Shown: piece by piece, positions 1 to 25,079 of the stretch
Numbering within the stretch: position 1 is the first letter of the stretch
How the letters are laid out: the number at the start of each line of letters is the position of its first letter
Assembly: GCA_023954255.1 (NCBI GenBank)
Contig: JAMLIH010000024.1
Coordinates: forward strand, 1-40,064
DNA: 40,064 bases
Direction of reading: 5' to 3'
Origin: Phyllobacteriaceae bacterium
GTDB lineage: Bacteria; Pseudomonadota; Alphaproteobacteria; Rhizobiales; Rhizobiaceae
The notes under the pieces: generated by a model
Told to the model about the DNA's origin: nothing
Database searches by the model: none
What the model saw: only the letters and a program-made list of their open reading frames with translations
Position numbers and translations under genes: made by a program

Positions 1-1162
1 AGCCGGCGGCGGCCAGGATTGCGAAAGTGCCAAGCAGCACGACCGGCACTGCCAGCGTGGGTATGAGGGTGGCGCGCAGGTTCTGCAGGAAAAGCAGCAT
101 CACCAGAAAAACGAGACCGATCGCCTCGAGCAGCGTCGTGATCACCTCATTGATCGACTTCTCGACGAAGGGCGCAGTGTCGTAGGGAATGACATAGCTG
201 ACATTGGGCGGGAAGAAGGCCGAATACTCCTCGATCTTCTGCTTGATGAGTTCGGCCGTATCGAGCGCATTGGCGCCGGCTGCAAGACGAATGGCCATGC
301 CGGCAGACGGCCGGCCGTTGTAGCGGGCGATTGTGCTGTAATTTTCCGCGCCGACCTCGACGCGGGCGACATCCTTGAGCAGCACCAGCCCGCCATCGGT
401 TTCAGCCCGCAGCACGATCTGCTCGAAATCCTGCGGCGTGGTCAGCAGCGACTGGGCGGTGATTGTCGCGTTGAGCTGCTGCCCCCCGATCGTCGGCAGC
501 GTGCCGAAGGCGCCCGCCGAAATCTGGGCGTTCTCCTCCGAAACCGCGCTCACCACATCGGCCGGGGTGAGCTCGAACGCCGCCAGCTTCGACGGATCGA
601 GCCATATCCGCATGGCATATTTGGCACCGAAGACCTGAACCTCGCCAACCCCTTCGAGACGGCTGAATTCGTCGACCAGATTGGTGTTCATGTAGTCGGC
701 GAGATCGACCTGTTCGAGCGAACCGTCATCGGAGATGAGAGCAACGACCATGAGAAAGCTGGCGGCGGACTTGCGGACGGTCACCCCTTGGCGCTGCACC
801 ACCTCCGGCAACAGGGCGGTAGCCTGCGCCAGCTTGTTCTGCACCTGCACCTGGGCGATGTCGGGATCGGTTCCCGTTTCAAAGGTCAGCGTGATGGAGG
901 ATGTTCCGGCCGAGGTGGAACTGGAGGAAAAGTATCGCAGGCCGTCCAGCCCCGTCATCTGCTGTTCGATGATCTGGGTCACGGTGTTGGCAACGGTTTG
1001 TGCCGATGCGCCGGGATAGTTCGCCCGCACGCTAACCGTCGGCGGCGCGATCTGGGGATATTGCGCCACCGGCAGCGCCGTAATCGACAGAATGCCCGTG
1101 CCCATGATGAAAATCGCAATCACCCAGGCGAAGATCGGACGGTTTATGAAAAAGCGTGCCAT
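1..1162 (-). CDS. RND efflux inner-membrane permease (AcrB/MexB type), C-terminus cut by window edge
   Basis: This is the proton-driven inner-membrane pump of a tripartite RND multidrug exporter. Only the first 387 codons are present, of about 1,040 in the family; the rest lies left of base 1. The start is typical of the family, [14 protein letters not shown], followed by the first transmembrane helix (about residues 10-28). The periplasmic porter region then shows the hallmark stretches [11 protein letters not shown] (about 31-41) and [12 protein letters not shown]. The visible part ends in the next membrane segment ([14 protein letters not shown]). The ATG at 1162 is 31 bases after the stop of the membrane fusion protein, so the two are surely co-transcribed. 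Substrates cannot be told from sequence. The TetR gene on the other side of the fusion protein is the obvious local regulator. Confidence 0.95.
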
Positions 1163-1193
1163 CACGGCCTCCGCTGAAAACTGGTCACAAGAC

Positions 1194-2348
1194 TCAGTTC
1201 TGGGTTTCTTCCATCTGGGTTTCTTCGGCCGGCTTTTCCTCCGGCTGGACCGGGGCACCGACACCAATCTTCTGGAACCCCTCGACGATCAGCCGGTCGC
1301 CCTCTTCAAGGCCATCACTGACGATCCAGTCGGCGCCCCTGTCGCCGAGTACCGTCAGTTCACGCTGCTCGACGATGTTCGCCGCATTGACGACCATCGC
1401 CACGGGATTTCCCCGCCGGTCACGCGACACGGCTCCCTGTGGGGCAAGGATGATGTCCTCCACCACGCCTTGCGGCATTTCCACCTGCACATACATGCCC
1501 GGCAGCAGCAGTTCGTCGGGATTTGGAAATTCAAGACGCAACAAGACGACGCCCGTCTGCTCATCGACATGCGGTTCGGCCGCCGTCAGTTCACCGGTGT
1601 GCTCATAGGTCTGACGGTCGGCAAGCGTCAGCCTGACCGTGGTGCTTCCTTCCTGCCGGGCGCCATTGCGCCGCCAGCGGATCAGTTCGGCAGCCGATTG
1701 GGTGACATCGACATAGACCGGATCGAGCTTGCGGATCACCGATAGCGGTTCAGACTGGCCGGCGGTAACAAGCGCGCCCTGGGTGGTCAGCGTGCGTCCG
1801 ATCGAACCGCTCAACTGCGCCCTGATGGTGGTCCGGTCGAGATTGATCCGGGCGGCAAGAAGCTGCGCCTCGGCAACCTGTACCGCTGCTGCGGCCGTCT
1901 CGCGTTTCGAGACCGCGTCGTCGACGGACTGCTCGCTGACCACGTTGCGCGAACTGAGCGCGCTTATCCGCTCGGCATCCCGCTTGGCCGCATCGAAGGC
2001 AACCCGGGCCTGGGAGACCGCGGCTTCTGCTGCCGCAACCTGCGCCTCATAGGTTGCCGGGTCGATGCGGTAGAGCACATCGCCTTCCCTGACGCGCGAA
2101 CCCTCCTCGAACAGCCGTTCGATGATGATGCCGTTTACCTGCGGGCGGACCTCGGCGACGCCGGAAGCGACAACGCGTCCGGGCAATCTGGCCGTTACCG
2201 TCACCGCCTGCTTGTGAAGCGTGACAACGGTAACCGCCGAGGGCGGGCGTTCCTGCTGGGCAAGCGCTGCCGAAGGCTGGAATGCCGTGACAGCAAGTCC
2301 CGCAAGCAGACAGAACAGGAGCGCTCCACGCGCAAACCGTGAAAACAT
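1194..2348 (-). CDS. RND efflux periplasmic membrane fusion protein (AcrA/MexA type)
   Basis: This is the periplasmic adaptor that joins the RND pump to an outer-membrane channel. It has 384 residues, normal for the family. A signal peptide covers about residues 1-31, ending near AALAQ. The lipoyl half-motifs follow ([21 protein letters not shown] and [24 protein letters not shown]), then an alpha-helical hairpin (about 105-170), a beta-barrel with [15 protein letters not shown], and a membrane-proximal domain. I see no lipobox cysteine, so it is probably not a lipoprotein. The gene precedes the permease by 31 bases and is divergent from the TetR gene. No outer-membrane TolC partner is visible. 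The end of the protein is rich in Glu ([15 protein letters not shown]). Confidence 0.95.
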
Positions 2349-2409
2349 TCAATTGTCTCCCGAAAACGGAACCCGCCTCTTGGCAAAGAAAGCAACCGGC
2401 GGTAAATAA

Positions 2410-2427
2410 GAAAACCGATGGGTTTCC
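2410..2427. promoter_or_regulatory. Inverted repeat between the efflux operon and tetR, candidate TetR operator
   Basis: In the divergent gap between the fusion protein gene and the TetR gene, GAAAACC (2410-2416) and GGTTTCC (2421-2427) form an inverted repeat around GATG, with six of seven pairs matching. TetR-family repressors of RND pumps usually bind such a palindrome between the two genes. Position and symmetry are seen; binding is inferred. Confidence 0.35.
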
Positions 2428-2488
2428 ATATGTGAGCCTGATGCCGATTGCAAGCATCTTGTGGCAGGTTTGATGCGGGGGGCAAGCC

Positions 2489-3136
2489 ATTTCGCAGGTA
2501 CAGGAGCAGGGAGCGGGCCGAGGCCCCGGCAGGCCGCAGCAACTCGATGCCGCCGAGCGCGAGACGCTGATTCTCGATGCTGCGGAACGGGTGATCGTCC
2601 GCGACGGCCTTGAAGGCGCTTCCATGTCCGCCATTGCGGTTGAAGCCGGCATGTCAAAGCGCACCCTCTATGAGGTCTTCGGCAACCGCGCGGATCTGTT
2701 CGCGGCCATCGTGCGGCGCATTCGCAACACCGTGACTCATGAGCTGGATGAATCGGAGCGCCTTCTGCCACTGGAGCAGAGGCTCCGTCTTCTTTTGCTG
2801 CCTTCCATCGACAAACAACCGGACAGTGTACCCGCAGCCATTCTGCGCGCCGTCGTGGCCGAGGCCAAGCGGCAGCCGGAGCTTGCCAAGGAGTTCCTCC
2901 AGGAAGGCCCCAAGGCGCTTCGCAACATCATCCGGGACGAACTCGACCGGGCGGTTGAATGCGGCGAAACCCGGATAGCCGACACCGCCATGGCCGCCGA
3001 ACTGCTGGCCAGCATGGCTTTCGGTGACCCTTTGACGCACCTGATCGACCCGTCTGCCGGGCATATATCCCCGAAAGAACGCAAAAAGCGGCTTGATAAG
3101 GCCATCGATATCTTCCTGCATGGCGTTGGTGGCTGA
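2489..3136 (+). CDS. TetR/AcrR-family transcriptional regulator, probable ATT start
   Basis: This is a dimeric DNA-binding repressor. The helix-turn-helix is clear: SMSAIAVEAGMSKRTLYEVF followed by GNRADLFAAIV. The first ordinary start codon in frame is GTG at 2591 (181 codons), but it falls inside the first helix of the DNA-binding domain. The frame stays open and family-like upstream to a TGA at 2471 (RPQQLDAAERETLILDAAERV). The region between that stop and the GTG holds no ATG, GTG or TTG in frame that would give a complete domain. An ATT at 2489, six bases after a run of G, gives a normal 215-residue TetR. Either ATT is used, as in infC, or the start codon has mutated. The gene is divergent from the RND operon, its likely target, and also lies 146 bases upstream of the acyl-carrier cluster, which it might control too. 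Confidence 0.85.
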   Translation: MSQVQEQGAGRGPGRPQQLDAAERETLILDAAERVIVRDGLEGASMSAIAVEAGMSKRTLYEVFGNRADLFAAIVRRIRNTVTHELDESERLLPLEQRLRLLLLPSIDKQPDSVPAAILRAVVAEAKRQPELAKEFLQEGPKALRNIIRDELDRAVECGETRIADTAMAAELLASMAFGDPLTHLIDPSAGHISPKERKKRLDKAIDIFLHGVGG

Positions 3137-3282
3137 TGTAGGTAGCCTTGCGGATTGGCATTGCCGGCCGGACGTGGCACAAGCGCCGTGGGAAGCAGTA
3201 GCAAACCAAGCCGGAACCTGTTTGGTCGGAACACTTCGCTGAAACCTGATATTGATGGTCTACCGTCATCGCCGGAGGGGAA

Positions 3283-3558
3283 ATGGCAGATGAGAACGCG
3301 GGAATCCGCGAAACACTTCGGGCATTGATCGTCAAGGAATCCTTCGTCGACGAAAACAAGCTCGTCGAGGATGCCACGCTCGAATCCCTGAGCATCGATT
3401 CCCTCGACATGTCGATGATCATGATGGCGATCGAGGAAAAATTCGACATATACCTTTCCGTCGATACAGAGCTCGACGGTATCGTCACCTTTGGCGAACT
3501 GGTTGCATTACTCGAGAAGAAGGTGTCCCAGGGCATTGCCGAACAACCGGCAAAATGA
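3283..3558 (+). CDS. Acyl carrier protein (dedicated, NodF-like size)
   Basis: This is a small carrier that holds acyl chains on a phosphopantetheine arm. It has 91 residues and is acidic. The attachment site is Ser40 in LSIDSLDMS, followed by the usual recognition helix MIMMAIEEKFDIYL and a final helix VTFGELVALLEKKV. A strong ribosome site (GGAGGGG) lies just before the ATG. It heads a run of four plus-strand genes spaced 21, 14 and 13 bases apart. It is not the housekeeping acpP: that protein has a DSLDTVELVMALEE-type core and normally sits between fabG and fabF, which this one does not. Its pairing with the next gene, a ketosynthase of 401 residues, resembles nodF-nodE, but no other nod gene is present. 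Confidence 0.93.
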   Translation: MADENAGIRETLRALIVKESFVDENKLVEDATLESLSIDSLDMSMIMMAIEEKFDIYLSVDTELDGIVTFGELVALLEKKVSQGIAEQPAK

Positions 3559-3579
3559 CGTTTTCTGGGCAACATTGAG

Positions 3580-4785
3580 ATGGCTGCACGTGTTGCCATA
3601 ACGGGAATGGGAGCGATAAGCGCTGCGGGCAATGGCGCGCAGGCGCTGTGGCGGGCAGCGCGCGACGGCAGCCCCTGCATCTCCCAACTGGATGAAACGC
3701 GGTTTCCCAGGGCGCGCATCAAGCATGCAGCGCTCATCCGTGAAGATATCACCCAGTTGCTCGGCGATGCGGCAACGAAACTCGACCGTTTTGCACAACT
3801 GGCCCTGCTGGCTGCCCGGGAAGCGGTGGAACAGGCGGATGCCGAAGCCCGGCTCGCCGGCATGAAGACCGCCGTGATCGTCGGGTCGGGCCTTGGCGGC
3901 GCGGAAACCATCAACCGGCTTACCGATGCCCACAGCGCCGGCGAAGTCCGGGTCGACCCGCTGACGGTGCCGAAGGTGATGGCGAGTGCCGCCGCCTCGG
4001 CCATTGCAACCCGGTATGGCGTTCACGGGCCGGTCTTCTGCATCAGCAGTGCATGCGCCTCCGGTTCCCAGGCCGTCGGCATCGGCATGCAGATGATTCG
4101 TTCCGGTGCCGTGGACAGGGCCATTGTCGGCGGGTCGGAAGCACTGATAACGCCAGCTGTTCTGCGGGGGTGGGAGGTAATGCGCGTTCTGACGCCCGAT
4201 CGCAACCGCCCGTTTTCAGCCGACCGCAATGGCATGATGCTGGGTGAAGGCGCAGGCATTGTGGTGCTGGAAAGCGCTGCCCTTGCCAAGGCGCAGGGAA
4301 AACGGCCGATAGCGTGGCTTTCCGGCTATGGCACGGCCTGTGACGCGGGCGACCTGCTGAAACCGGATGCCCAATGGGCTGCCGAGGCGATGAAGCGCGC
4401 GCTCTCGGATGCAGCGCTGAAGCCTGCAGATGTCGGCTATGTCAACGCCCACGGCACCGGGACCGTGCTCAACGACGTTGCAGAGGCGGCAGCCCTCGGC
4501 GACACGTTCGGCGATCATCTGGATGGACTTCCCGTTTCCTCAACCAAACCGGTTCACGGCCACACCATCGCCGCAGCCGGGGCGATCGAATTGATCATCA
4601 CCGTCAATGCCCTGCGCGAGCAGTTTGTACCGCCGACGATCAACTGGACGGCAGAGGATCCCAGATGCCGGATGGATGTCGTCGCCAACACCGGGCGGCC
4701 GCACGGATTCAGCGCCGCCATGTCGAACTCGTTCGCCTTTGGCGGCATCAACACCAGCCTTCTCGTTGAGATGGCTGCCGAATAG
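3580..4785 (+). CDS. Beta-ketoacyl-ACP synthase (FabF/NodE-like KAS II family)
   Basis: This is a condensing enzyme that extends an acyl chain by decarboxylative Claisen condensation on an ACP. It has 401 residues, the size of NodE. The full catalytic set is present: Cys159 in SSACASGS, His291 in VNAHGTGT, Lys323 and His328 in STKPVHGHTIAAAG. The C-terminal glycine-rich SNSFAFGGINTSL, typical of the FabF group, is also intact. It is therefore an active ketosynthase and not a chain-length factor. The PPTINW and RCRMDV segments resemble both NodE and FabF. It sits between the ACP and the acyltransferase and is probably translated from the same message. Chain length and substrate are unknown. 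Confidence 0.95.
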   Translation: MAARVAITGMGAISAAGNGAQALWRAARDGSPCISQLDETRFPRARIKHAALIREDITQLLGDAATKLDRFAQLALLAAREAVEQADAEARLAGMKTAVIVGSGLGGAETINRLTDAHSAGEVRVDPLTVPKVMASAAASAIATRYGVHGPVFCISSACASGSQAVGIGMQMIRSGAVDRAIVGGSEALITPAVLRGWEVMRVLTPDRNRPFSADRNGMMLGEGAGIVVLESAALAKAQGKRPIAWLSGYGTACDAGDLLKPDAQWAAEAMKRALSDAALKPADVGYVNAHGTGTVLNDVAEAAALGDTFGDHLDGLPVSSTKPVHGHTIAAAGAIELIITVNALREQFVPPTINWTAEDPRCRMDVVANTGRPHGFSAAMSNSFAFGGINTSLLVEMAAE

Positions 4786-4799
4786 GAGTGGAAGCCGGA

Positions 4800-5777
4800 A
4801 TGTCGAAGGCAGCGGGCAAAACCCTGTTTCTGTTTCCCGGGCTCGACGCCGTGCTCGACGCAGAAAAAATCCGCCGCTGGCTGGACGTGCCGTCTGTCAG
4901 GCAGACGCTTGAATCGGCTTCTGAAAGCCTGTCCGAGGCAACGGGAAGAGAGCATTCCCTTGTCGACCTGTTCGCGGAAATGCGGCGGCCGCAGGATGTG
5001 GACGAAGACCTCATCCATATCGGCCTGATCGCCATTCAATATGCCATTGCGCTGGAGTCGGAGAAGCGGGTGATCCCCGACATTCTGACAGGATGCAGCC
5101 ATGGCGACCTCGGGCGCATGGCCTTCGCAGGCTGCCTGCCGCTGTGGGATACCATCCGCATGGCCTGGGCTTCGGCGCAATTGCGGACGCGATGTGTACC
5201 GGGCGTCAACGCAAGCGCGCGCTCCGTCAGCGGACGCCTGACCACAGAGCAACTGGACTGGCTGCGCAAACAGGATGTCGTCGTCAGCCAGTGGACCCAC
5301 CACCATGCGACGGCAGCAGGTTCTCTGGAGACCATTCGCGACCTGCGCGAGCGCGCCATCAGGCATGGCCTGAAAATGCATATCCTGCTGCGCGTGCCGG
5401 TGCATTCGCCCCTGATGCGGCCGGTTGTCGACGAAGCCTTGCGGATATCCCAGCAGTTCCATCTCGAGCCGCCGCGCTATCCCATTTTTTCCAGCGTCTA
5501 TGTACGCCGGATCGGGGACGTGACGGAGCTCAAACAGGAAGCCGTCGATGCATCGTTGTCGGAAATCCGATGGATGGAAACACTGACCAGGCTGATCGAA
5601 GAGGAAGGCGTTCGCCGCATTGTCTGTATCGGCCCGAGCTCGACGCTCGCCAACTGGATCATGGATGATGACGACATCAAAGGCGTCGAGGTCATCGATG
5701 CCTGGGATTTGTGCCGCACACAGGCAAGACCAGCGGGGTCCCTGCCTTCCCGCCCGGATGCAAGCCCGTCAGCCTGA
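4800..5777 (+). CDS. FabD-like acyltransferase, malonyl-binding Arg replaced
   Basis: This is a divergent member of the malonyl-CoA:ACP transacylase/PKS acyltransferase fold, 325 residues. The start FLFPGLDAVL matches the FVFPGQGSQ region. The nucleophile is Ser100 in GCSHGDLG (family GHSxG), and the catalytic histidine is His202 in VPVHSPLM. The C-terminal VCIGPSSTLANWI matches the family VGPGxVL. The arginine that holds the malonyl carboxylate (Arg117 of E. coli FabD, 25 residues after the serine) is Ser125 here by gap-free hand alignment, which suggests a monocarboxylic acyl group. A GTG at 4788 is in frame but touches the upstream stop. The ATG at 4800, behind AGGAG (4784-4788), is a better start. 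The C-terminal tail (about 305-325) is low in complexity. Confidence 0.82.
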   Translation: MSKAAGKTLFLFPGLDAVLDAEKIRRWLDVPSVRQTLESASESLSEATGREHSLVDLFAEMRRPQDVDEDLIHIGLIAIQYAIALESEKRVIPDILTGCSHGDLGRMAFAGCLPLWDTIRMAWASAQLRTRCVPGVNASARSVSGRLTTEQLDWLRKQDVVVSQWTHHHATAAGSLETIRDLRERAIRHGLKMHILLRVPVHSPLMRPVVDEALRISQQFHLEPPRYPIFSSVYVRRIGDVTELKQEAVDASLSEIRWMETLTRLIEEEGVRRIVCIGPSSTLANWIMDDDDIKGVEVIDAWDLCRTQARPAGSLPSRPDASPSA

Positions 5778-5790
5778 AACGGAGAAACGA

Positions 5791-6858
5791 ATGACGTTCA
5801 ATCATCTCCGCTTCCTCGCCTTCCCGCTGCTGCAAACCTGGACAGTTCTCTGCCTGGCAATCGGCGGCCCGATGATCTTCGCCGGCTACCAGACGATCCT
5901 CGTTGCGCTGCTGATCGGTGATCAGTTTCTCGGCCGTTACGAATTTGCAGATGAAGAGGAAAGCCGCCTGCTCCGCTCGCTGCCAGCCGTCTCGCTTGCC
6001 CTGCATGCCGTCGTGCTGGTCCAGACCATGCACCTTGTCGGCGTAACCGATCTGACAAATGCCCACGGCATTTTCCTGACCGGCTATCTGATACTGCAGC
6101 TTGCCGGCATGAGTGCCCACAATGCGGTGATCAACAGTCATGAACTGGTGCATCAGCCGACACGGCTGGATTTCTTTCTAGGACAATTGCTGGCTGCCTT
6201 CGCCTTTCGTTCTTCCGGTGCAATCGATCATGTCTACGGACACCATCGCTATGTGGGGCTGCGGGAAGACAATGCCACGGCCCGGCCGGGCGAAAGCTTC
6301 TGGCGCTTCCTGCCGCGAACCGTCATCGGCATCGAAGTGTTCAGCCACGGTTTCGAGAAAGAGCGGCTGGCACGGCGAGGATTGCCTGCCTGGCACTGGC
6401 AGAACCGGCATCTTCAGGGTTTTGCCTGCGCGGCCGCGATTTGCGTTGCCGCTTTCCTGACCGGCGGTGCGCAGGGTTTTGCGGCCTTTCTGGTTTCCGC
6501 CGTGCTGGCATCGGCAACCATGGAGGCCGGCAACTACATCGCCCATTACGGTCTGGTGCGTGCACCCGGAACACGCGCTGCAGAACACCACTCCTGGAAC
6601 AACCTCAACACGCTTTCGACCAGCCTGTTATTGAACCTGCCGCGCCATTCCGATCATCATTCGCGCCCCGATGCCGACTACTGGAAACTCACCTTGCCCG
6701 ACCGGGTGCCGCAACATCCCTTCGGCTTCATGAACATGACGCTGTTCGCATTCTTTCCGCCGCTGTTTTTCGCCGTTACAAGGCGCACGCTGCAGCACTG
6801 GCTGAGGCATCTCGCGACACCGCAGGAACGGGAACTGTACGAGTCCTACCGGAAATGA
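5791..6858 (+). CDS. AlkB-type membrane di-iron hydroxylase
   Basis: This is an integral-membrane non-haem di-iron monooxygenase of the alkane hydroxylase group, 355 residues, with several hydrophobic segments. All nine histidines of the AlkB pattern are present: NSHELVH (117, 121), HVYGHHRYV (147, 151, 152), NYIAHYGL (252) and LPRHSDHH (286, 289, 290). The 30-residue step from the first to the second motif is the same as in Pseudomonas AlkB. The NYxxHYGL element marks it as AlkB-like and not a plain fatty acid desaturase. The start at 5791 follows GGAG; the open frame reaching back to 5620 only overlaps the upstream gene. No rubredoxin or reductase is adjacent, so electrons must come from elsewhere. 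Being last in the ACP-ketosynthase-acyltransferase operon suggests it oxidises the acyl product of those enzymes. Confidence 0.9.
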   Translation: MTFNHLRFLAFPLLQTWTVLCLAIGGPMIFAGYQTILVALLIGDQFLGRYEFADEEESRLLRSLPAVSLALHAVVLVQTMHLVGVTDLTNAHGIFLTGYLILQLAGMSAHNAVINSHELVHQPTRLDFFLGQLLAAFAFRSSGAIDHVYGHHRYVGLREDNATARPGESFWRFLPRTVIGIEVFSHGFEKERLARRGLPAWHWQNRHLQGFACAAAICVAAFLTGGAQGFAAFLVSAVLASATMEAGNYIAHYGLVRAPGTRAAEHHSWNNLNTLSTSLLLNLPRHSDHHSRPDADYWKLTLPDRVPQHPFGFMNMTLFAFFPPLFFAVTRRTLQHWLRHLATPQERELYESYRK

Positions 6859-7058
6859 CGAAACTGCCCTGAAAAATCCGGTTTGCAGCGGGCTGCCACC
6901 AAACTGTATTGAAACGGTGCTCTGTGAAACGGAGCGGCCGTCATGGCCACACCGGCAGGTTCCGGCATGTCATGATGCCGCCGGACCTTTGCGATACTGA
7001 CCCGGCCCACTGGCTTGAAGGCAAGCGGCAGTTTTGAAGCGACAGAAAGAAATCCAAA

Positions 7059-9776
7059 GTGACGATCCGGAATCTCGATCTTGCCTTTGCACCGAAATCC
7101 GTCGCGCTGATCGGCGCCAGCCCGCAGCCCGGCTCCGTGGGACAGACAATCACCGAAAACCTCAGGACCGGCGGCTTTGCCGGGCCGGTATGGCTGGTAA
7201 ACCCGTCGCACAAGGAGATTGCCGGACAGGCCTGCTACCCGAATGTCGGCGCCCTGCCTGAAGCGCCGGATCTCGCCGTCATCGCCACACCGCCTGCCAC
7301 GGTAGCCGGCCTGATCGGCGAACTGGGTCACAAGGGTACCCGTGCCGCGATCGTCATTACCGCAGGCCTCAGCAAGGAACAGCGCCAGGCGATGCTCAGC
7401 GCCGCACAGCCCTACTGCCTGAGAATCATCGGAAACAATTGCCTTGGCATGTGCCTGCCCAATATCGGCCTTAATGCCAGCTTCGCGCATCTTTCCCCGG
7501 CGCCCGGCAAACTTGCCATGATCTCCCAGTCGGGCGCGCTGATGAGCGCCATCCTCGGCTGGGCTAAAACCCACCATGTCGGATTTTCGGCCGTGGTGTC
7601 GATGGGCGACATGGCCGATGTCGATGCCGGAGACCTGCTGGAGTTTCTTGCCGCAGACATCTCGACACGCGCCATCCTGCTTTACCTTGAATCCGTGCCC
7701 GCCACGCGCAAGTTCATGTCGGCTGCGCGTGCCGCTGCCCGCGCCAAGCCGGTGATCGCCATCAAGTCGGGGCGCTTTCCCGCATCGGCGCAGGCGGCAG
7801 CCACCCATACCGGCGCACTGGCAGGCGCCGACAATGTGGTCGATGTCGCCTTTGCCCGCGCCGGCATCGTCCGCGTCTACGAACTGGAATCCCTGTTCGT
7901 CGCGGCGGAAGCGCTGACCCGGTTGAAGCCGATATCGGGCAACCGGCTCGGCATTCTGACCAATGGAGGCGGTGCCGGCGTTCTCGCCGTCGACCAGTTC
8001 ATGGCGCTGGGCGGCGAACTGGCGCCGCTCGGCGAAGCCTCGAAGAAGGCGCTCGATGCCGTGTTGCCCGCTACATGGTCGCATGCAAACCCCGTCGACA
8101 TCATCGGCGATGCCGATGCGGCGCGCTATGGCAACGCCATGGAGGTTCTGCTCGACAGCGACGACAGCGATGCCCTGCTCGTCCTCAACTGCCCGACCGC
8201 ACTCACCTCTTCAACGGAAGCAGCGCAAGCCGTCGTCAAAGCAGTCGAGCACCACCGCGAGCGCGGGCCAACTAAACCCGTCCTGTGCACCTGGCTGGGG
8301 GGCGACGAGACACGGGAAGCGCGCAGCCTTTTCGCCGAAGCCGGCATTCCGAGCTATGACAGTCCGGCCGATGGCGTGCGCGCCTTCCACTATCTGCGTA
8401 CCTACACCCGCCGTCAGGAGGAACTGATGCGGGTTCCCAAAAGCCGCTCGTCTTCCGTTACCATCGACAGCGATGCCATACGCGAAGTTCTGGAGAAAGC
8501 CTCGGCATCGGGCCGCGACATGCTCAATGCGGCAGAGTCGGCAATGGTCCTCGATGCCTGCGGCATTCCCGTTGTCATGGCGCAACGGGTGCAGGATGCT
8601 GCCGGTGCGCAAGAGGCTGCGGCCGGATTGCTGCGCGAACACGCGGCCGTCGCCATCAAGATCGCGTCAAAGGATATCTCGCACAAGTCCGATGCGGGTG
8701 GCGTGGCACTCGACATCGCGACGCCCGGGGAGGCGCGCGAAGCTGCCGAAACGATGGAAGCGCGGGTGCGCAAGGCGATGCCCTCCGCCCGGCTGGAGGG
8801 CTTTTCCGTCGAGCCGATGATCGTGCGGCCGCAGGCGCATGAACTGATCGTCGGCATTGGCGACGATGCGCTGTTCGGCCCGGTCATCCTGTTCGGAGCC
8901 GGCGGCACGGGAACCGAAGTCATCGCAGACACCGCCGTTGCCCTTCCGCCGCTCGACCCGAAGTTTGCGCAGGACCTCATCGGGCGGACGGAAATCCAAA
9001 AGCTGCTGAAGGGCTACCGGAACCGCCCGGCAGCCGATATCGCCGCCATTGCCGATACGCTGATGCGTATTTCGCAGCTCATCATCGATCATCCGGGGAT
9101 ACGCGAACTCGACATCAACCCGCTTCTGGCCGACGAGAACGGCATCTTCGCCCTCGATGCCCGCATCCGTTTCGAACCATCGCAAGCCAGCCTGAAGGGA
9201 CCCAATACGCGCCTTGCCATCCGGCCCTATCCGAGCCAGTGGGAAAAGCGCGTCTCAACACCTGCCGGAAGCGAAATCCTCATCCGGCCGATCCGCCCTG
9301 AAGACGAGCATCTCTATGAGACCTTCATTGCCAACCTGGCACCGGCCGACATCCGTTTTCGATTCCTGGCACCGAGAAAGGAATTCTCGCACGCCTTCAT
9401 CGCCCGGCTGACCCAGATCGACTACAACCGGACAATGGCCTTCGTGGCGCTTGATCCCGCCGACAACACCCTGCTTGGCGTGGCGCGGCTTCATGCCGAT
9501 CCCGATTACGAGCGGGCCGAATACGCCGTCATCGTACGCAGCGACCGCAAGGGACAAGGCCTCGGCTGGGCGCTGATGCATCACCTGATCGACTATGCCA
9601 ACGCGGAAGGGCTGAAGGAACTGAACGGTGACGTGCTGACGGAAAACACCGGCATGCTGAGGATGTGCCACGAACTGGGCTTCAGCATCGAGCAGGACCC
9701 TGACGACCCGGTTGTCTGCCGGGTTGCGCTGAAGCTTCCCGTCGAACGGCTGGCGAGCGGCAGTTTGCCGGGTTGA
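7059..9776 (+). CDS. Bifunctional ADP-forming acyl-CoA synthetase / GNAT acetyltransferase (PatZ/Pat-like)
   Basis: This is a 905-residue fusion. Residues about 1-130 form a CoA-binding Rossmann domain (PKSVALIGASPQPGSVG). Succinyl-CoA-ligase-like domains follow (about 140-460), then an ATP-grasp domain (about 475-710), then a C-terminal GNAT domain (about 740-890) with the acetyl-CoA loop RKGQGLGWAL. Proteins of this layout acetylate lysines, notably of acetyl-CoA synthetase, so the cell can tune acetate activation. His250 in THTGALAG matches the phospho-histidine of true ADP-forming acetyl-CoA synthetases. The synthetase part could therefore still be active, whereas in enterobacterial Pat it is regarded as inactive. 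The start is GTG at 7059, with only a weak ribosome site. It lies 200 bases after the AlkB-like gene and is probably a separate unit. A strong hairpin follows at 9801. Confidence 0.92.
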   Translation: MTIRNLDLAFAPKSVALIGASPQPGSVGQTITENLRTGGFAGPVWLVNPSHKEIAGQACYPNVGALPEAPDLAVIATPPATVAGLIGELGHKGTRAAIVITAGLSKEQRQAMLSAAQPYCLRIIGNNCLGMCLPNIGLNASFAHLSPAPGKLAMISQSGALMSAILGWAKTHHVGFSAVVSMGDMADVDAGDLLEFLAADISTRAILLYLESVPATRKFMSAARAAARAKPVIAIKSGRFPASAQAAATHTGALAGADNVVDVAFARAGIVRVYELESLFVAAEALTRLKPISGNRLGILTNGGGAGVLAVDQFMALGGELAPLGEASKKALDAVLPATWSHANPVDIIGDADAARYGNAMEVLLDSDDSDALLVLNCPTALTSSTEAAQAVVKAVEHHRERGPTKPVLCTWLGGDETREARSLFAEAGIPSYDSPADGVRAFHYLRTYTRRQEELMRVPKSRSSSVTIDSDAIREVLEKASASGRDMLNAAESAMVLDACGIPVVMAQRVQDAAGAQEAAAGLLREHAAVAIKIASKDISHKSDAGGVALDIATPGEAREAAETMEARVRKAMPSARLEGFSVEPMIVRPQAHELIVGIGDDALFGPVILFGAGGTGTEVIADTAVALPPLDPKFAQDLIGRTEIQKLLKGYRNRPAADIAAIADTLMRISQLIIDHPGIRELDINPLLADENGIFALDARIRFEPSQASLKGPNTRLAIRPYPSQWEKRVSTPAGSEILIRPIRPEDEHLYETFIANLAPADIRFRFLAPRKEFSHAFIARLTQIDYNRTMAFVALDPADNTLLGVARLHADPDYERAEYAVIVRSDRKGQGLGWALMHHLIDYANAEGLKELNGDVLTENTGMLRMCHELGFSIEQDPDDPVVCRVALKLPVERLASGSLPG

Positions 9777-9800
9777 CCCGAATTGCGGGCACAAAATGAA

Positions 9801-9824
9801 AATGCCGCGCGAGGGCGCGGCATT
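9801..9824. terminator. Hairpin terminator between convergent genes
   Basis: AATGCCGCGC (9801-9810) and GCGCGGCATT (9815-9824) make a perfect 10-bp stem with a four-base loop. It lies in the 73-base gap between the plus-strand acyl-CoA synthetase gene and the minus-strand dctP gene and can serve both. The T-runs are short (TTCATTTTG on the minus side). Confidence 0.8.
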
Positions 9825-9849
9825 TCCGGTTTGTTTCGGGCAGGGCCGC

Positions 9850-10941
9850 CTAGCGGTAGGGATACCCGGCCTTTTCCATGTTCGAGGCATATTTCTTGAA
9901 CGCCTCGACCACCTTGCCGGCGCGCGGGCTGGAAGCGGCCACCTCGTCCCAGAAGCCTTCGGCATCCTTGACGACCTGTCCCCATTCCTCGGCAGGAAGG
10001 CTGGTAAGTTCCATCTTCTCGCCTTCGACGCGCAGCTTCGCCTCGCCGCCCCAGTACCAGACGTCGCGGTAGTAGTGCGACTGGTCGATGGTGATCTTGA
10101 ACAGTTCCTGCAGATGCGGCGGGACTTTTTCCCAGCTTTGCGTGTTGGCGAAGTAGCTGCCGAACCAGGCGCCGGTGACGGAGTTGGACAATGCGTATTT
10201 GCAGACATCGGCCCAGCCGACCTCATAGGCCTCGGTGAAGCCGCACCAGGCAACGCCGTCGAGTTCACCCGTCTGCATGGCAACTTCCACGTTGTCCCAC
10301 GGGATGGTGACCGGCACGAGGCCGTATTTCGACAGGAAGCGTCCGGCGGTCGGCACGCCGAACACGCGCAGGCCGTTCATGTCCGCAAGGCTGCGGATCG
10401 GCTTGTCGACGGTGAAGATGTGCAGCGGATCCCAGGCGCCCGACGAAAGCCAGGTCACGTTGTCGACTTCCGAGTAGGCCTCCGCCCAGATTTCGTTGAG
10501 GCCGTAATAGTTGAACAGGGCCGGCACATCGAGGCTGTAGCGGGTGGCAAACGGGAAGTAGCCGCCGAACACGGCGATGTCGACAGGCGATGCCATGGTG
10601 GCCTCGTCTGACTGCACGGCATCGATCGTGCCGTTCTGCAGCGCGCGGAAGAGGTCGGCCGTGGGGACGAGCTGGTCGGCATAATAGAGTTCGATCTCCA
10701 TCTCGCCGTTTGCCGCCTTGTTGAAAGCCTCGATCTGCGGCTTGATGACGTGGGCACCCCGCGGCGCGCCGGAATAGGTCTGGAGGCGCCACTTGATCGG
10801 GCCGCTCTGGGCATTGACATAGGGTGCGGCGAGCGTCGTGGCTGCCGCCGCACCGGCGCCAACACCGGCCGTCTTGAGGAATTTCCGGCGGGTGGACAAT
10901 ATCCGCTCGGACGGACTGTCCTGCTTGGTCTTATTGGTCAT
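9850..10941 (-). CDS. dctP: TRAP transporter periplasmic solute-binding protein (DctP family), Tat-exported
   Basis: This is the extracytoplasmic binding protein of a TRAP transporter, 363 residues. The N-terminus has a twin-arginine signal: STRRKFLKTAG with Arg18-Arg19, a hydrophobic stretch, and likely cleavage near residue 45 (APYVNAQ). Tat export is common for TRAP binding proteins of alphaproteobacteria. The DctP fold is seen in GELDGVAWCGFTEAYEVGWADVCKY and in DKPIRSLADMNGLRVFG. The ATG at 10941 was chosen because a near-perfect ribosome site (AAAGGAGG, 10947-10954) lies five bases upstream. A longer open frame to 11010 runs into the dctM gene. It is last in the regulator-dctQ-dctM-dctP order. 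The ligand is unknown; the divergent dehydrogenase/kinase genes make a polyol or related compound likely. Confidence 0.93.
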   Translation of the reverse strand: MTNKTKQDSPSERILSTRRKFLKTAGVGAGAAAATTLAAPYVNAQSGPIKWRLQTYSGAPRGAHVIKPQIEAFNKAANGEMEIELYYADQLVPTADLFRALQNGTIDAVQSDEATMASPVDIAVFGGYFPFATRYSLDVPALFNYYGLNEIWAEAYSEVDNVTWLSSGAWDPLHIFTVDKPIRSLADMNGLRVFGVPTAGRFLSKYGLVPVTIPWDNVEVAMQTGELDGVAWCGFTEAYEVGWADVCKYALSNSVTGAWFGSYFANTQSWEKVPPHLQELFKITIDQSHYYRDVWYWGGEAKLRVEGEKMELTSLPAEEWGQVVKDAEGFWDEVAASSPRAGKVVEAFKKYASNMEKAGYPYR

Positions 10942-10976
10942 GTGAACCTCCTTTGGTTGGTATGCCGCAAATTGCG

Positions 10977-12314
10977 TTATCCCCGTACGTTCATGTGCTC
11001 CGGCAGCCACAGGGCAAGCTGGGGAAAGAGCATTACGAGAATGATGGTAAGTGCCATCATCACCACGAACGGCCAGATCGACCGGTAGATGTCGACCAGG
11101 GTGATTTCCTTCGGCGCGAGCGAGCGCATCAGGAACAGGTTGTAGCCGAAGGGCGGGGTGATGTAGGCGATCTGGCAGGTGATCGTGTAGAGCACGCCGA
11201 ACCAGATCAGCTGATTGTCGAAACCCAGATCAAGTGTCTTGACGAGCGGCACGTAGAGCGGCGCGACGATGACCAGCATCGCGGTATCGTCGAGGAACAT
11301 GCCCATCAGAATGAAGCTGAGCTGCATCATGATGATGATGGCCCAGGGCGAAAGTTCCCATTGCTGGACGAAGATGTTTTCGATTGCCCGCACGGCGCCA
11401 AGGCCGTCGAACACCGCGCCAAAGGCGAGCGCCGCCAGAATGAGCCACAGGAACATGCAGGAAACCGCCAGCGTCTTCATCGAGGTTTCGCGGATCAGCT
11501 TCCAGGTGAAGCGGCGCTTGAGGATGGCGGCCAGGGTAGCGCAGGTCGCGCCGACGGCGGAGCTTTCCACCAGGCTCGTATAGCCGAAGACGAACAGGCC
11601 GGTCATGAAGAAGAAGATCGCGAAGGGGATGATGCCGGCGCGCGCCAGCGCCAGCTTCTCGCGAAACGGCATGTTGAGTTCCTCCTTGGGAACCACCGGC
11701 GCCAGTTCCGGATTCATGCGGGCGCGAATCAGGATGTAGATGACGAACAGACCGGCCATGATCAGGCCCGGAACGAGGCCGGCGAACCACAGCTTGGAGA
11801 CAGGCTGTCTTGCGATCATGCCGAACAGCACGAGCACGACCGATGGCGGGATCAGGATGCCAAGCGACGATCCGCCCTGGACAACGCCGGTGATCAGCAC
11901 CTTGTCATAGCCGCGCCGCAACATCTCCGGCAGCGCGATGGTGGCACCGATGGCCATGCCGGCGACCGAAAGGCCGTTCATGGCGGAGATGATGACCATG
12001 AGAAAAATCGTTCCGACGGCAAGGCCGCCGCGCAGCGAGCCGAACCAGACATGGAGCATCTTGTAGAGGTCTTCGGCGATGCCTGATTCCGACAGGATGT
12101 AGCCCATGTAGATGAACATCGGCAGGGTCAGCATCGGGTACCAGTTGAACAGCTTGAACACCTGGTTGAAGGGCAGTTCGATGGACCCCTGACCGTAGAG
12201 AAGGACTGCCGCGCCGGCTGCGACGAAACCGATGGCGGCAAACACCCGCTGCCCGGTGGTCAGAAGCACGACCATCGAGGCAAACATCAGCAGTGCGATC
12301 ATTTCATAGCTCAT
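10977..12314 (-). CDS. dctM: TRAP transporter large permease (DctM family)
   Basis: This is the main membrane subunit of a TRAP transporter, 445 residues with about a dozen hydrophobic segments, carrying solute with a sodium ion gradient. Family features include GGSSLGILIPPSVVLVLFGMIA and, near the end, TPPFGYNLFLMRSLAP. Its start overlaps the stop of the dctQ gene by four bases, so translation is probably coupled. The dctP gene begins 35 bases after its stop. Confidence 0.95.
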   Translation of the reverse strand: MSYEMIALLMFASMVVLLTTGQRVFAAIGFVAAGAAVLLYGQGSIELPFNQVFKLFNWYPMLTLPMFIYMGYILSESGIAEDLYKMLHVWFGSLRGGLAVGTIFLMVIISAMNGLSVAGMAIGATIALPEMLRRGYDKVLITGVVQGGSSLGILIPPSVVLVLFGMIARQPVSKLWFAGLVPGLIMAGLFVIYILIRARMNPELAPVVPKEELNMPFREKLALARAGIIPFAIFFFMTGLFVFGYTSLVESSAVGATCATLAAILKRRFTWKLIRETSMKTLAVSCMFLWLILAALAFGAVFDGLGAVRAIENIFVQQWELSPWAIIIMMQLSFILMGMFLDDTAMLVIVAPLYVPLVKTLDLGFDNQLIWFGVLYTITCQIAYITPPFGYNLFLMRSLAPKEITLVDIYRSIWPFVVMMALTIILVMLFPQLALWLPEHMNVRG

Positions 12315-12823
12315 TCGATCGCCTCCCCGCGAAGCGTCGCAATGTGCTTGAAGACCAGCGAGACTGCCTGCATCAGCATGAGCACGAGACAGGCGACCAT
12401 CAGCGTCTTGATCGGTATCACGGAGGGATTCCAGATCGAGAAGCGCCTCTCGCCGGTCTCGATCGCGTATTGCAGGCTGGATATCGCGCCGAGCAGCATG
12501 ATGCTCAGATAGAAGATGAGGCAGCCGACGGTCAGGAGGTCCAGCCTGGCCTTGCCGCGTTCCGTCAGGTTTGCGTAGAACAGATCCATACGGACATGGT
12601 CATTGTTCTTCAGCGTAATCGCTCCACCCATGAAATAGTAGGCTGCAAGGGTGAACTGGGTCAGCTCGATGGCCCAGTGCACCGGCATGTTGATGACGTT
12701 GCGGGTAAAGGCGTCGAACATCAAAACCGCGCCCATGAAGAAGATCAGCGTGGCGGCCAGGTAGCCGACATAGTCGGAGATGCGATCGATGAATTTCACA
12801 TATTGTCGAATTACGCCCGGCAC
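12311..12823 (-). CDS. dctQ: TRAP transporter small permease (DctQ family)
   Basis: This is the four-helix small membrane subunit of the TRAP transporter, 170 residues. Hydrophobic segments are at about 17-37, 50-70, 93-113 and 135-158. Typical elements are MGAVLMFDAFTRNV and MGGAITLKNNDHVRMDLFYANL. It lies 31 bases downstream of the DeoR-family gene on the same strand and overlaps dctM by four bases. The regulator and transporter genes thus form one likely operon. A small perfect hairpin, CATGGT/ACCATG, lies in the 31-base gap at 12838-12852. Confidence 0.93.
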   Translation of the reverse strand: MPGVIRQYVKFIDRISDYVGYLAATLIFFMGAVLMFDAFTRNVINMPVHWAIELTQFTLAAYYFMGGAITLKNNDHVRMDLFYANLTERGKARLDLLTVGCLIFYLSIMLLGAISSLQYAIETGERRFSIWNPSVIPIKTLMVACLVLMLMQAVSLVFKHIATLRGEAIE

Positions 12824-12854
12824 GCCGTCCCCCCGGGCATGGTGAGACCATGTC

Positions 12855-13622
12855 TCAATGCCATACTTCCACTCCCCTCTCCCGCATTGCGGTGATGTCC
12901 ATTGCCTTTGCCTGCGAATCGCTGATCAGCAGGTCGATCTCGTCCGGGTCGCAGACCTTGAAGGCCGCCTGTCTGCCGAATTTGGAACTGTCTGCCAGCA
13001 CGATGAGAAAATGCGTGTTGCCGATCATCGCCCGGGCGATCTGTGCCTCTTCATAGCTGGCATCCCAGCCGCCTGCATCCGGAGAAATCGCCGCCACGGA
13101 AATTACCGCCTTGTCGGCACTGTAGGCTGATATCTGTCTGATGGTATCGGGTCCCACGGTTTCCGCATTGTCTCCCTGATAGCGGCCTCCGAGCAGAAAT
13201 ATCGCTGCATCCGAGCCGCTTTTGGCAAGTCTCTCCGCCATTCTTGTGGAATTGGTCACAATGGTCAGCCCCGGAATCGCCGCCAGGAATTCCGCTGCCG
13301 CCAGTGTGGTCGAGCCGGTGTCGACGAAAAGGGTCTCCCCCGGTTCCACGGCCTGGGCCAAAAGCCGGCCGATATGCGTCTTGGCCACTGCCTCGGTGCC
13401 AAGGCGCTCGTCGAAACTGCCCTCCGTGATCAGCCGCGGGCGCTTGGCGCCGCCGTGAACTTTCTGTGCCCTGCCGCTTTCTACAAGCTGTGCCAGATCG
13501 CGACGTATGGTTTCGGTCGAAACACCGAATGAATCTGCGAGCATCTCGACCGTCACTTCGCCTTCGCGGCGTATCTTCTCATCTATCAGCCGCTGTCGTT
13601 CGTGAGGCTTCATTCTCGTCAC
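12855..13622 (-). CDS. DeoR/GlpR-family transcriptional regulator
   Basis: This is a sugar-phosphate-sensing repressor, 255 residues. The N-terminal helix-turn-helix is VEMLADSFGVSTETIRRDLAQL, followed by the family's KVHGGA turn. The C-terminal sensor domain contains FVDTGSTTLAAAEFL, the phosphosugar-binding type loop. GlpR of this family senses glycerol 3-phosphate, which fits the divergent GlpA-like genes. The gene lies first in the TRAP operon and 96 bases from the divergent dehydrogenase gene, so it probably controls both sides. The start at 13622 could instead be the Met three codons later. Confidence 0.92.
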   Translation of the reverse strand: MTRMKPHERQRLIDEKIRREGEVTVEMLADSFGVSTETIRRDLAQLVESGRAQKVHGGAKRPRLITEGSFDERLGTEAVAKTHIGRLLAQAVEPGETLFVDTGSTTLAAAEFLAAIPGLTIVTNSTRMAERLAKSGSDAAIFLLGGRYQGDNAETVGPDTIRQISAYSADKAVISVAAISPDAGGWDASYEEAQIARAMIGNTHFLIVLADSSKFGRQAAFKVCDPDEIDLLISDSQAKAMDITAMRERGVEVWH

Positions 13623-13669
13623 ATCCCTCGCCGCCGGTCAAGGCCATCGCGCAATACACTTTACACAAA

Positions 13670-13683
13670 TGACCAAATAGTCA
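13670..13683. promoter_or_regulatory. Small inverted repeat in the deoR/dehydrogenase divergent promoter
   Basis: TGAC (13670-13673) and GTCA (13680-13683) flank an AT-rich centre in the 96-base gap between the divergent regulator and dehydrogenase genes. The whole gap is AT-rich compared with its surroundings, as expected for back-to-back promoters. It is a candidate operator only; the arms are short. Confidence 0.25.
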
Positions 13684-13718
13684 ATATATGAACAAAACCA
13701 CATTTGCGTTTTGGGGAT

Positions 13719-15101
13719 ATGTCAGACGCCGGGCAGGAGAGTTTTGACGTAGCGATTGTCGGGGCCGGTGTCGTTGGATGCGCACTTGCCCGGCAATTCA
13801 CTCTTGATGGCGCCCGCGTGGCAATCCTCGAAAAGGCGGCAGACGTTCTGGACGGCGCCTCGAAGGGAAACAGCGCCATTCTGCATACCGGGTTCGACGC
13901 GCCGGAAGGCTCGCTCGAAGTCCAGTGCATGCGGGAAGGATACCGGCTCTATCTCGAAATCCATGAGCGGCTGGGCCTGCCGCTGATCCGCTCCGGCGCG
14001 CTCGTGCTTGCCTGGAACGAGGCCCAGCAGGCGGAACTGCCCGGCCTGATCGAGCGTGCGCATGCCAACGGGGTAAGCAATGTCGGACCCCTGACCCGGC
14101 AGGAAATCCTCGATCTCGAGCCGCATCTGTCGCAAGGCGTTACCGGCGGCTTCCGGGTGCCGGGCGAATACCTGATCGATCCCTGGTCGGCAGCCCACGC
14201 CTATCTGCTGCAGGCAATCGAAAACGGCGCGCGGCTCTATCGGGGCAGCGAGGTACTGTCCGGCAGCCGGAGCGGCGGGCGCTGGCATCTCGAAACATCG
14301 TCGGGCAGGTTGAGCGCCAGCCTGGTCATCAACGCCGCCGGCCTTTTCGGCGACATCGTCGACAAGCGCATCACCGGCGAAAGCTGGTTCACCATCCGCC
14401 CGCGCAAAGGCCAGTTCGTGGTTTACGACAAACCGGCTTCGGCACTTGCCGGTCACATTCTGCTGCCCGTTCCCACCAAGACGACCAAGGGCATCGTGGT
14501 CTGCCGCACCGCGTTCGGAAACCTGCTGGTCGGCCCGACGGCGGAAGAGCAGGAAGACCGGGAGCATGCACTGCTGGACACGGAGACGATGACGGCGCTT
14601 GCCGCAAAGGCGGAGGAAATCCTGCCCGAGCTGCGCCACCATCAGGTGAACGCGATCTATGCGGGTTTGCGCCCCGCTACCGAGGAAAAGGACTATCGCA
14701 TCCGCACCGATCTTGCCGAGGATTACATCTGTGTCGGCGGCATTCGTTCCACCGGACTTTCGGCAGCGCTGGGGATTGCCGCCCATGTCGCCCGCCTGGC
14801 GGCGCGCAAGGACACACCGCTCGAAAGTCCCGTCTGGCCGAAAATGCCGATGATTTCGGAATACGGAAAGCGCGACTGGTGCGAACCGGGCAATGGCGGC
14901 ATCGTCTGCCTTTGCGAGATGGTGACGCGCCGCGAGATCGACAACGCGCTGATCGGACCGCTGGCTGCCTGCTCGATGGGCGGGCTGAAGCGCCGCACCC
15001 GCGTCACCATGGGCCGTTGCCAGGGCTTTTACTGTTCGGCTGAACTTGCCCGCATAACCTACGGCCGGCTGGCCGAGCCGATGCTGGCCGGAGACGATTG
15101 A
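13719..15101 (+). CDS. GlpA-like FAD-dependent dehydrogenase with C-terminal BFD-type iron-sulphur domain
   Basis: This is a 460-residue flavoenzyme. The FAD-binding Rossmann motif is at the N-terminus (DVAIVGAGVVGCALARQF), followed by a DAO-type oxidase body (SKGNSAILHTGFDAPEGS, INAAGLFGD). A BFD-like [2Fe-2S] domain ends it, with Cys397, Cys399, Cys434 and Cys439. This layout is that of GlpA, the anaerobic glycerol-3-phosphate dehydrogenase large subunit, and of related enzymes acting on hydroxy compounds. The ATG at 13719 is preferred to a TTG at 13704. It is followed after one base by the next flavoprotein gene, its likely partner subunit. Substrate assignment to glycerol 3-phosphate is inference from family and neighbours. 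Confidence 0.88.
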   Translation: MSDAGQESFDVAIVGAGVVGCALARQFTLDGARVAILEKAADVLDGASKGNSAILHTGFDAPEGSLEVQCMREGYRLYLEIHERLGLPLIRSGALVLAWNEAQQAELPGLIERAHANGVSNVGPLTRQEILDLEPHLSQGVTGGFRVPGEYLIDPWSAAHAYLLQAIENGARLYRGSEVLSGSRSGGRWHLETSSGRLSASLVINAAGLFGDIVDKRITGESWFTIRPRKGQFVVYDKPASALAGHILLPVPTKTTKGIVVCRTAFGNLLVGPTAEEQEDREHALLDTETMTALAAKAEEILPELRHHQVNAIYAGLRPATEEKDYRIRTDLAEDYICVGGIRSTGLSAALGIAAHVARLAARKDTPLESPVWPKMPMISEYGKRDWCEPGNGGIVCLCEMVTRREIDNALIGPLAACSMGGLKRRTRVTMGRCQGFYCSAELARITYGRLAEPMLAGDD

Positions 15102-15102
15102 G

Positions 15103-17824: not shown

Positions 17825-17939
17825 AGCCTGCAATTCGTCATTGCAAATCACCGAAAATGTTCTCAAACGCTTTCTTGACCCGGCTCCCCTGGGCCATTAG
17901 GCGCTCGCAATTCATCATCTTCCAAAACCGGAAACGATT

Positions 17940-19181: not shown

Positions 19182-19267
19182 CGGCACAACCGTTCGCGGC
19201 CGATCAGAGCGCCACAAAACCGGCCGCATGGTTGGCCTGTTCACAAATCGGGGAATCGAAGACTGGG

Positions 19268-19613: not shown

Positions 19614-19631
19614 TATCAGGGTCAGGACCCA

Positions 19632-25060: not shown

Positions 25061-25079
25061 CCAAATTCTTACCAACTCC

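Follow-up and report, generated by a model that had tools for sequence, protein, structure and literature searches.

The 40,064-nucleotide stretch considered here (the window; contig JAMLIH010000024.1 of the Phyllobacteriaceae bacterium assembly GCA_023954255.1) carries four consecutive genes for an acyl carrier protein (ACP), a beta-ketoacyl-ACP synthase (KS), a FabD-fold acyltransferase-like protein (AT-like) and a membrane di-iron oxygenase of the AlkB/XylM superfamily (AlkB-like; Table 1). We propose, with a probability of roughly one in two, that these genes, an adjoining TetR-family regulator and a divergently transcribed RND efflux pump form a self-contained, apparently rare module in which a small acyl metabolite of fatty-acid or polyketide-like type is assembled, oxidised and exported. 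The genes are genuine, under constraint and linked to the efflux pump. What the analysis shows directly is the conserved gene order, purifying selection, the joint occurrence of operon and pump among a few genomes, the catalytic residues kept or lost, and the clade positions of the proteins. The individual families are known; their combination was not recognised in the titles and abstract openings of the papers listed by searches of open-licence literature, which is weak evidence of absence. What we infer about the order of reactions, the part played by the AT-like protein, the source of electrons, the control of the genes and the export of the product is as follows. The ACP would carry the chain and the KS would add malonyl-derived units, while any reduction or dehydration would be provided by the general fatty acid synthesis of the cell. 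The membrane di-iron enzyme would oxidise the chain, probably far from the thioester, with electrons supplied in trans by a XylA-type ferredoxin reductase. The AT-like protein would not load malonyl units and would instead release or transfer an uncharged acyl chain, the RND pump would export the product, and the TetR regulator would sense the product or an intermediate and control both pump and operon.

A preliminary description of this DNA, made from the sequence alone, had reported four tightly packed genes forming one operon, and analysis of the open reading frames (ORFs) of the window confirmed all four on the plus strand, with intergenic gaps of 21, 14 and 13 bases, and supports the operon. 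The limits given for the unit were too narrow, since the TetR gene, the divergent RND adaptor and the permease also belong to the conserved block, whose order is RND permease, adaptor, TetR, ACP, KS, AT-like and AlkB-like, with the pump diverging from TetR. The same gene order is found in a second species, the metagenome-assembled genome Nitratireductor sp. HKST-UBA69 (G005; locus L013, the same as L019, on a contig of 17,186 bases), which belongs to the same genus group as the host genome (3.34 Mb in 139 contigs, 91.8% complete). Identity between the two copies is 90% for the adaptor, 80% for TetR, 85% for the ACP, 83% for the KS, 88% for the AT-like protein (over 309 of 325 aligned residues) and 70% for the AlkB-like protein (over 262 and 70 residues, split by an assembly gap). 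The nucleotide alignment with the HKST-UBA69 contig covers window positions 1-6575 (contig positions 13497-6943, 81% identity), 6632-6848 and 19266-25919. The ratio of nonsynonymous to synonymous substitution rates (dN/dS), calculated for five genes, is 0.12 for TetR, 0.09 for the ACP, 0.13 for the KS, 0.10 for the AT-like protein and 0.19 and 0.12 for the AlkB-like protein before and after the assembly gap, respectively, with underlying dS values of 0.7-1.0 (1.9 for the short AlkB-like C-terminal piece); all five genes are thus under purifying selection. Because of the same order, the high identity and dN/dS values of 0.09-0.19 in a second species, the four-gene set is not a product of chance, and the presence of the same block there, with identities of 70-90% for six genes and a nucleotide match for the permease, supports the module reading.

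Within the genus, the ACP was matched in two of seven genomes (E<=1e-10) and the RND adaptor in the same two (E<=1e-40), both of which hold all four genes; four of the five genomes without ACP and adaptor are 91-100% complete and one is 77% complete. Within these few genomes, pump and operon are thus found together. The preliminary description had left to further searches whether the four genes stay together, and within the genus they do so, in company with the pump adaptor. Beyond the genus, our limited searches found no second carrier. The AlkB-like protein was matched in two of 201 relatives at E<=1e-60 (the host itself and HKST-UBA69), in three of 385 genomes of the class at E<=1e-50 (the host and two others, L004 and L005, from which the operon is absent) and only in the host among 398 genomes of the phylum at 1e-45; a loose limit of 1e-15 gave 24 places in 18 of 215 genomes of the class, which served as the source for the residue survey described below. 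For the AT-like protein the host was the only match at 1e-25 among 397 genomes of the order. These genome draws overlap, and HKST-UBA69 was met only in the searches of relatives and genus. A scan of genome contigs with two narrow peptide patterns, which could miss distant clusters, matched 161 stretches with 19 relatives and one carrier (HKST-UBA69). On plasmids, tblastn matched the AlkB-like protein in 45 records and the AT-like protein in 20, all below 60% identity (23-28% among the 15 AT-like matches listed), and the 81 stretches matched in viral contigs by the AT-like pattern pair contained no relatives. The module is apparently rare.

The residues of the KS which we take to be catalytic, Cys-His-His, are read in CISSACAS, AHGTG and VHGHT. 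Its score against fabF TIGR03150 is 365.4 bits, below the cut-off of 493.75, and none of the ACP, KS and AT-like proteins reached the curated cut-off of any NCBIfam family listed (for the KS, the best 25 of 30 families); the AlkB-like protein matched no NCBIfam family. On plasmids, the best KS match was that of an ACP-KS pair of Xanthomonas sacchari (L007; 48% identity), and NodE (L010) reached 42%. In a further draw from the phylum, 41 of 378 genomes, the host included, matched the KS at E<=1e-85, the best of the others being 47-51% identical. Among eight KS stretches opened from seven genomes (L068-L075), tblastn found an ACP match just upstream of the KS in L068, L070, L071 and L072, and ACP-like ORFs judged by eye occupy this place in L073 and L074, with none shown in L069 and L075. 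MaoC adjoins the KS in L070, L071 and L072, followed by an SDR gene in L070, and a small ORF beside the KS of L068 had no family match. A quick tree of 37 rows groups the KS of the window and of HKST-UBA69 with the ACP-KS pair rows L068-L072 (99) and the NodE row with five rows of its own family (100), apart from the window. We thus rejected NodE as the identity of the KS. The likeness to NodF and NodE noted in the preliminary description holds for the ACP directly upstream of the KS, but not for the clade of the KS. The rhizobial NodF/NodE pair shares a small ACP followed by a FabF-family KS of about 400 amino acids; however, NodF aligns with the window ACP only with insertions, and here AT-like and oxygenase genes follow and a pump and TetR are attached. 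No nod genes were present among the scanned window genes (part of the window was annotated) or noticed in the ORFs of the HKST-UBA69 contig. The closest KS kin found are the ACP-KS(-MaoC-SDR) pairs of other Pseudomonadota (L068, L070-L072, L007), with 48-51% identity and the ACP directly upstream; MaoC/SDR or other partner genes accompany them, whereas the Nitratireductor operon has neither MaoC nor SDR. By tblastn, no AT-like or oxygenase match was found in L007 and L068-L075. The kinship of the KS with such pairs, some with tailoring genes beside them, supports the module reading, as does the presence in the host of a further Acyl_transf_1 gene and of four further ketosynthase matches, including a KS pair at C63 (L077/L078). 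Genes for a ketoreductase, a dehydratase or a classical thioesterase are absent from the operon, which supports the earlier view of an acyl pathway that does not encode its own ketoreductase or dehydratase; the absence of a thioesterase stated there is correct for the classical type, but the FabD-like protein may itself be the release enzyme.

Alignment with three FabD structures and with L017, the other Acyl_transf_1 protein of the host, shows that the AT-like protein keeps Ser100 (GCSHGD) and His202 (VPVHSPLM). The position of the malonate-binding arginine (Arg117 in E. coli), which is present in all three PDB alignments printed and in L017, is Ser125 in both AT-like copies, and the motif FPGQG reads FPGLD in both (Gln to Leu). 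With serine at this position, a FabD malonyl transferase was rejected as the identity of the AT-like protein. The FabD-style malonyl loading assumed earlier has no support, since the arginine is replaced and the host has one further Acyl_transf_1 gene, L017, with canonical motifs, which we take as FabD. The earlier labels "FabD-like" and "AlkB-type" are apt for the fold of the two proteins, but not for clade or active site. In the portion of PMC11775670 drawn on here, absence of the malonate arginine is described as diagnostic of acyl hydrolases in trans-acyltransferase (trans-AT) systems, and the lack of this residue in the AT-like protein is consistent with the module reading. With FabD and the trans-AT acyl hydrolases (PksD, PedC) the protein shares the FabD fold, the GxSxG serine and the histidine, and the arginine is missing as in the acyl hydrolases; these, however, usually have Gln or His at its position according to the same portion, and here it is Ser. 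The AT-like protein is therefore not FabD, and the changed Gln12 and Phe200 positions described below set it apart from standard acyl hydrolases as well. Because the malonate-binding arginine is missing, it probably handles an uncharged acyl chain, which it perhaps releases; transfer of the chain is one option in place of release, and the protein may also prime the ACP with a neutral starter.

Among solved structures, 8sbb and 8f6t lie closest to the AlkB-like protein in sequence (E about 1e-35), and they were also the sole matches at E<=0.001 in a fold search with a model of pLDDT (predicted local distance difference test) 70 whose input alignment held AlkB rows. Aligned to these structures at the key columns, the window protein keeps all nine iron-binding histidines; the HKST-UBA69 copy shows six of them on one side of the assembly gap and three on the far side. 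The motif NYIEHYG reads NYIAHYG, so that the position of Glu271 of FtAlkB is Ala251 in the window and in HKST-UBA69. The relevant part of PMC10113152 names Glu271 among the ligands of Fe2, at a distance of 3.2 A from the methyl group of the substrate, whereas in that of PMC10110569 the same residue, numbered E281, has an unresolved side chain, and its contact, near the iron that carries the other label, is given as possible only. A survey of this column in 51 rows gave 31 Glu, 8 Gln, 4 Ala, 3 Gly, 2 Ser, 2 Phe and one gap, where 13 of the Glu rows are Pseudomonas copies, the rows of G227 are present in duplicate, there is one partial row, and the gap row is a wrong-frame fragment. The change from Glu to Ala is not unique, because L087 and L096 have alanine as well as the window and HKST-UBA69; the XylM row (L102) has Gln.

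The proteins of the window and of HKST-UBA69 are placed on the XylM side in trees of 49 rows (100/99) and 23 rows (100/100), with a stem of length 1.4 and outside the XylM clade itself. Forcing the pair into canonical AlkB (including the host copy at C53) changed the likelihood by -28.8 log units (approximately unbiased (AU) test, p 0.00877; 23 chosen rows), a value to be read in the light of the long stem of the pair and of a canonical group that was defined after inspection of the first tree. Canonical AlkB membership of the oxygenase was thus rejected (AU p 0.009, tree position on the XylM side), and the grouping with proven alkane enzymes, which the preliminary description had held to be decisive against its pathway, was not found for canonical AlkB. 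The AlkB alkane 1-monooxygenases (FtAlkB; host copy at C53, L014) share the fold and the nine histidines, but the present enzyme forms a separate clade, has alanine for Glu271 and lies in a biosynthetic-looking operon. With the xylene monooxygenase XylM, a hydroxylase, it shares the side of the tree and the lack of glutamate at the Fe2-ligand position, but the two are about 29% identical, Ala takes the place of Gln, and the present enzyme lacks a neighbouring XylA reductase gene.

No XylA-type reductase gene is present in the conserved block. Relatives on the XylM side have a Fer2/FAD/NAD XylA-type reductase beside the oxygenase (L113) or fused to it (L111), and by analogy an electron donor of the XylA type might act in trans here. 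The fused L111 protein (8083-10356) joins a 2Fe-2S/FAD/NAD reductase and an AlkB-like domain in 757 amino acids. Canonical AlkB would need rubredoxin, and none was found in the host draft (91.8% complete) at E<=0.01; the host carries a second, canonical AlkB (L014 6309-7454). Five neighbourhoods of AlkB-like relatives were opened (L106, L107, L111, L112, L113). In L112 (1-9658) the AlkB-like gene lies near a type I polyketide synthase (PKS; KS, AT, DH, ADH_N), a phosphopantetheinyl transferase and an FA_hydroxylase protein, and in L106 (7508-10092) an Ala-type AlkB-like gene adjoins an ICMT methyltransferase and a type III PKS. Biosynthetic use of the superfamily is therefore plausible elsewhere, which makes the present layout less surprising and supports its reading. 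The position of the oxygenase outside canonical AlkB, its XylM-side kin with reductases, its kin with PKS neighbours and the search of the host draft that gave no rubredoxin argue for the proposed module. Genes near the L106 locus look, by eye, like acyl-homoserine-lactone synthases and LuxR regulators. JamABC-type alkyne pathways have a dedicated ACP and a membrane di-iron enzyme; here, in contrast, there is no fatty-acyl ligase, and a KS and an AT-like protein are found instead.

The pump is an RND multidrug efflux system of the AcrAB type by curated cut-offs, which are exceeded by the whole permease of HKST-UBA69 (1647.6 bits for TIGR00915, 1522.3 for NF000282) and by the window adaptor (cut-off 94.9 for TIGR01730). 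Positions 2591-3133 of the TetR gene match TetR_N (9.9e-10) and TetR_C_7 (AefR-like; 2.5e-17). Its frame has no ATG, GTG or TTG from the stop at 2471 to position 2591, inside the helix-turn-helix; an ATT at 2489, kept in HKST-UBA69, has a G-rich stretch just upstream, and a rare ATT start is possible. The inverted repeat between adaptor and TetR, a candidate TetR operator, is a perfect 11-nt repeat in HKST-UBA69 (L019 6095-6120) and pairs at 9 of 11 positions in the window copy, which was read by eye, the repeat tool having given none in that stretch. Six terminator-like sites are predicted in 2300-7100, close to the mean of 4.9 in shuffled sequence, and none lies between TetR and the ACP gene.

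Several observations weigh against a self-contained biosynthetic module. Only two genomes carry it, both of them drafts (77% and 92% complete), and no sigma-70-like promoter was detected in 2300-7100. The operon is without a reductase gene, and the argument from missing rubredoxin is weakened because the host's canonical AlkB also has no rubredoxin beside it. Among the AlkB-like relatives, L107, L111 and L113 gave no tblastn match to KS, AT or ACP and showed no PKS among the ORFs printed. The AT-like protein differs at two positions that the consulted portion of PMC11775670 calls strictly conserved among acyl hydrolases, namely the oxyanion residue Gln12 (Gln or His), here Leu15, and Phe200 of the xFHS motif, here Val201. 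In the same portion an Arg-to-Gln variant of PedD took acetyl from an ACP without hydrolysis, so that loss of the arginine alone makes no hydrolase, and the acyl hydrolase studied there prefers short chains.

Alternatively, the operon might remodel membrane lipids by supplying the envelope of the cell with acyl chains of an unusual kind (longer, hydroxylated or unsaturated), with the pump only clearing hydrophobic stressors under the same TetR. This would agree with acyl-chain enzymes whose block holds no partner gene for activation or peptide formation, with AcrAB/TetR pairs usually answering toxic hydrophobic compounds, and with the KS pair at C63, by which extra acyl systems exist in the host; but the block contains no glycerolipid acyltransferase or lipid-transfer gene, and its patchy distribution (2/7) fits a dispensable metabolite better, so that we regard lipid remodelling as a serious though doubtful explanation. 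The original model, in which the acyltransferase primes the ACP in the manner of FabD, the KS elongates and the AlkB enzyme hydroxylates the chain, accounts for the gene content, the intact KS residues and the FabD fold. It appears quite unlikely, given the replaced malonate arginine, the Gln to Leu change in FPGQG and the other host gene taken as FabD.

The other alternatives concern the oxygenase. It might be a desaturase-like enzyme on an ACP-bound chain which, having lost the carboxylate, is no longer a hydroxylase. Alanine at the Glu271 position in both copies would fit this, as would the water that PMC10110569 notes at a comparable place in the desaturase SCD1; however, XylM hydroxylates with Gln there, so loss of the glutamate alone is not loss of hydroxylation, and the consulted part of PMC10110569 gives the glutamate contact itself only as possible. 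We consider a switch to desaturation improbable. A catabolic locus, in which the oxygenase attacks a hydrocarbon or an aromatic methyl group and ACP and KS are passengers, has in its favour that the nearest characterised relatives are AlkB and XylM and that an acyl-CoA synthetase-like gene comes next (7059-9776). Yet this gene does not adjoin the block in HKST-UBA69, as the alignment skips window positions 6859-19265; moreover, ACP, KS and AT-like protein are conserved together with the oxygenase, and genes for ring cleavage or for the dehydrogenation of alcohols or aldehydes are missing from the conserved block, which makes catabolism highly improbable. As for the proposed module, a more specific form of it, in which the oxygenase without Glu271 acts on an ACP-tethered chain to give a distal hydroxyl group or double bond, the FabD-like protein off-loads the chain, and the product is an exported, TetR-sensed signal or antibiotic, is a speculation that we think unlikely to hold in full.

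The locus is notable for combining a membrane enzyme of a kind that oxidises hydrocarbons with a small assembly line of the fatty-acid type. If the oxygenase acts on the ACP-bound chain, acyl chains oxidised at distal positions would become accessible through a compact pathway that lends itself to genetics. The locus would then also serve as a natural experiment on the need for the carboxylate ligand of AlkB in C-H oxidation, and it would show how an ACP-KS pair gains new tailoring, release and export parts.

Table 1. Features of the conserved block in the window
Feature	Position	Strand	Basis or remark
RND efflux permease, 3' part, cut by contig start	1..1190	-	nucleotide alignment with HKST-UBA69 (L013), 81%
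RND periplasmic adaptor, MFP, AcrA/MexA type	1194..2348	-	TIGR01730 251.5 bits; 90% identity in HKST-UBA69 (G005)
Inverted repeat ATAAGAAAACC-GATG-GGTTTCCATAT, candidate TetR operator	2406..2431	n/a	between adaptor and TetR
TetR-family regulator	about 2489..3136	+	Pfam; start inferred (ATT 2489); frame open from 2474
Acyl carrier protein, 91 aa, Ser in SIDSLD	3283..3558	+	PP-binding 2.4e-6
Beta-ketoacyl-ACP synthase (KS), 401 aa	3580..4785	+	ketoacyl-synt 2.3e-46, Ketoacyl-synt_C 6.8e-33
FabD-fold acyltransferase-like (AT-like), 325 aa, ATG	4800..5777	+	Acyl_transf_1 1.3e-9
AlkB/XylM-superfamily membrane di-iron oxygenase (AlkB-like), 355 aa, ATG	5791..6858	+	FA_desaturase 2.9e-23

For two genes other starts are available: the AT-like gene has an alternative GTG at 4788, upstream of the ATG, and the mechanically called ORF of the AlkB-like gene opens earlier, at 5620. 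Upstream of the ACP gene of HKST-UBA69 there is a perfect 22-bp palindrome (L019 6908-6929), and none was reported in the matching stretch of the window. Eight genes of the window were scanned for families; none is an integrase, which would bear on the idea of a genomic island, and two had no family match. In HKST-UBA69 the end of the block adjoins a tRNA-His gene (L013 6561-6637, plus strand; compare L013 6639-6667), and in the window about 12.4 kb (6859-19266) separate the operon from the same tRNA-His gene (19268-19344, minus strand); this stretch holds the acyl-CoA synthetase-like gene, TRAP transporter parts, a DeoR regulator and an aminotransferase. The comparison suggests that the region 3' of tRNA-His is variable. 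On plasmid pT173a of Ensifer canadensis, two acyltransferase-domain genes lie directly 3' of trb conjugation genes (L008 5785-7768).

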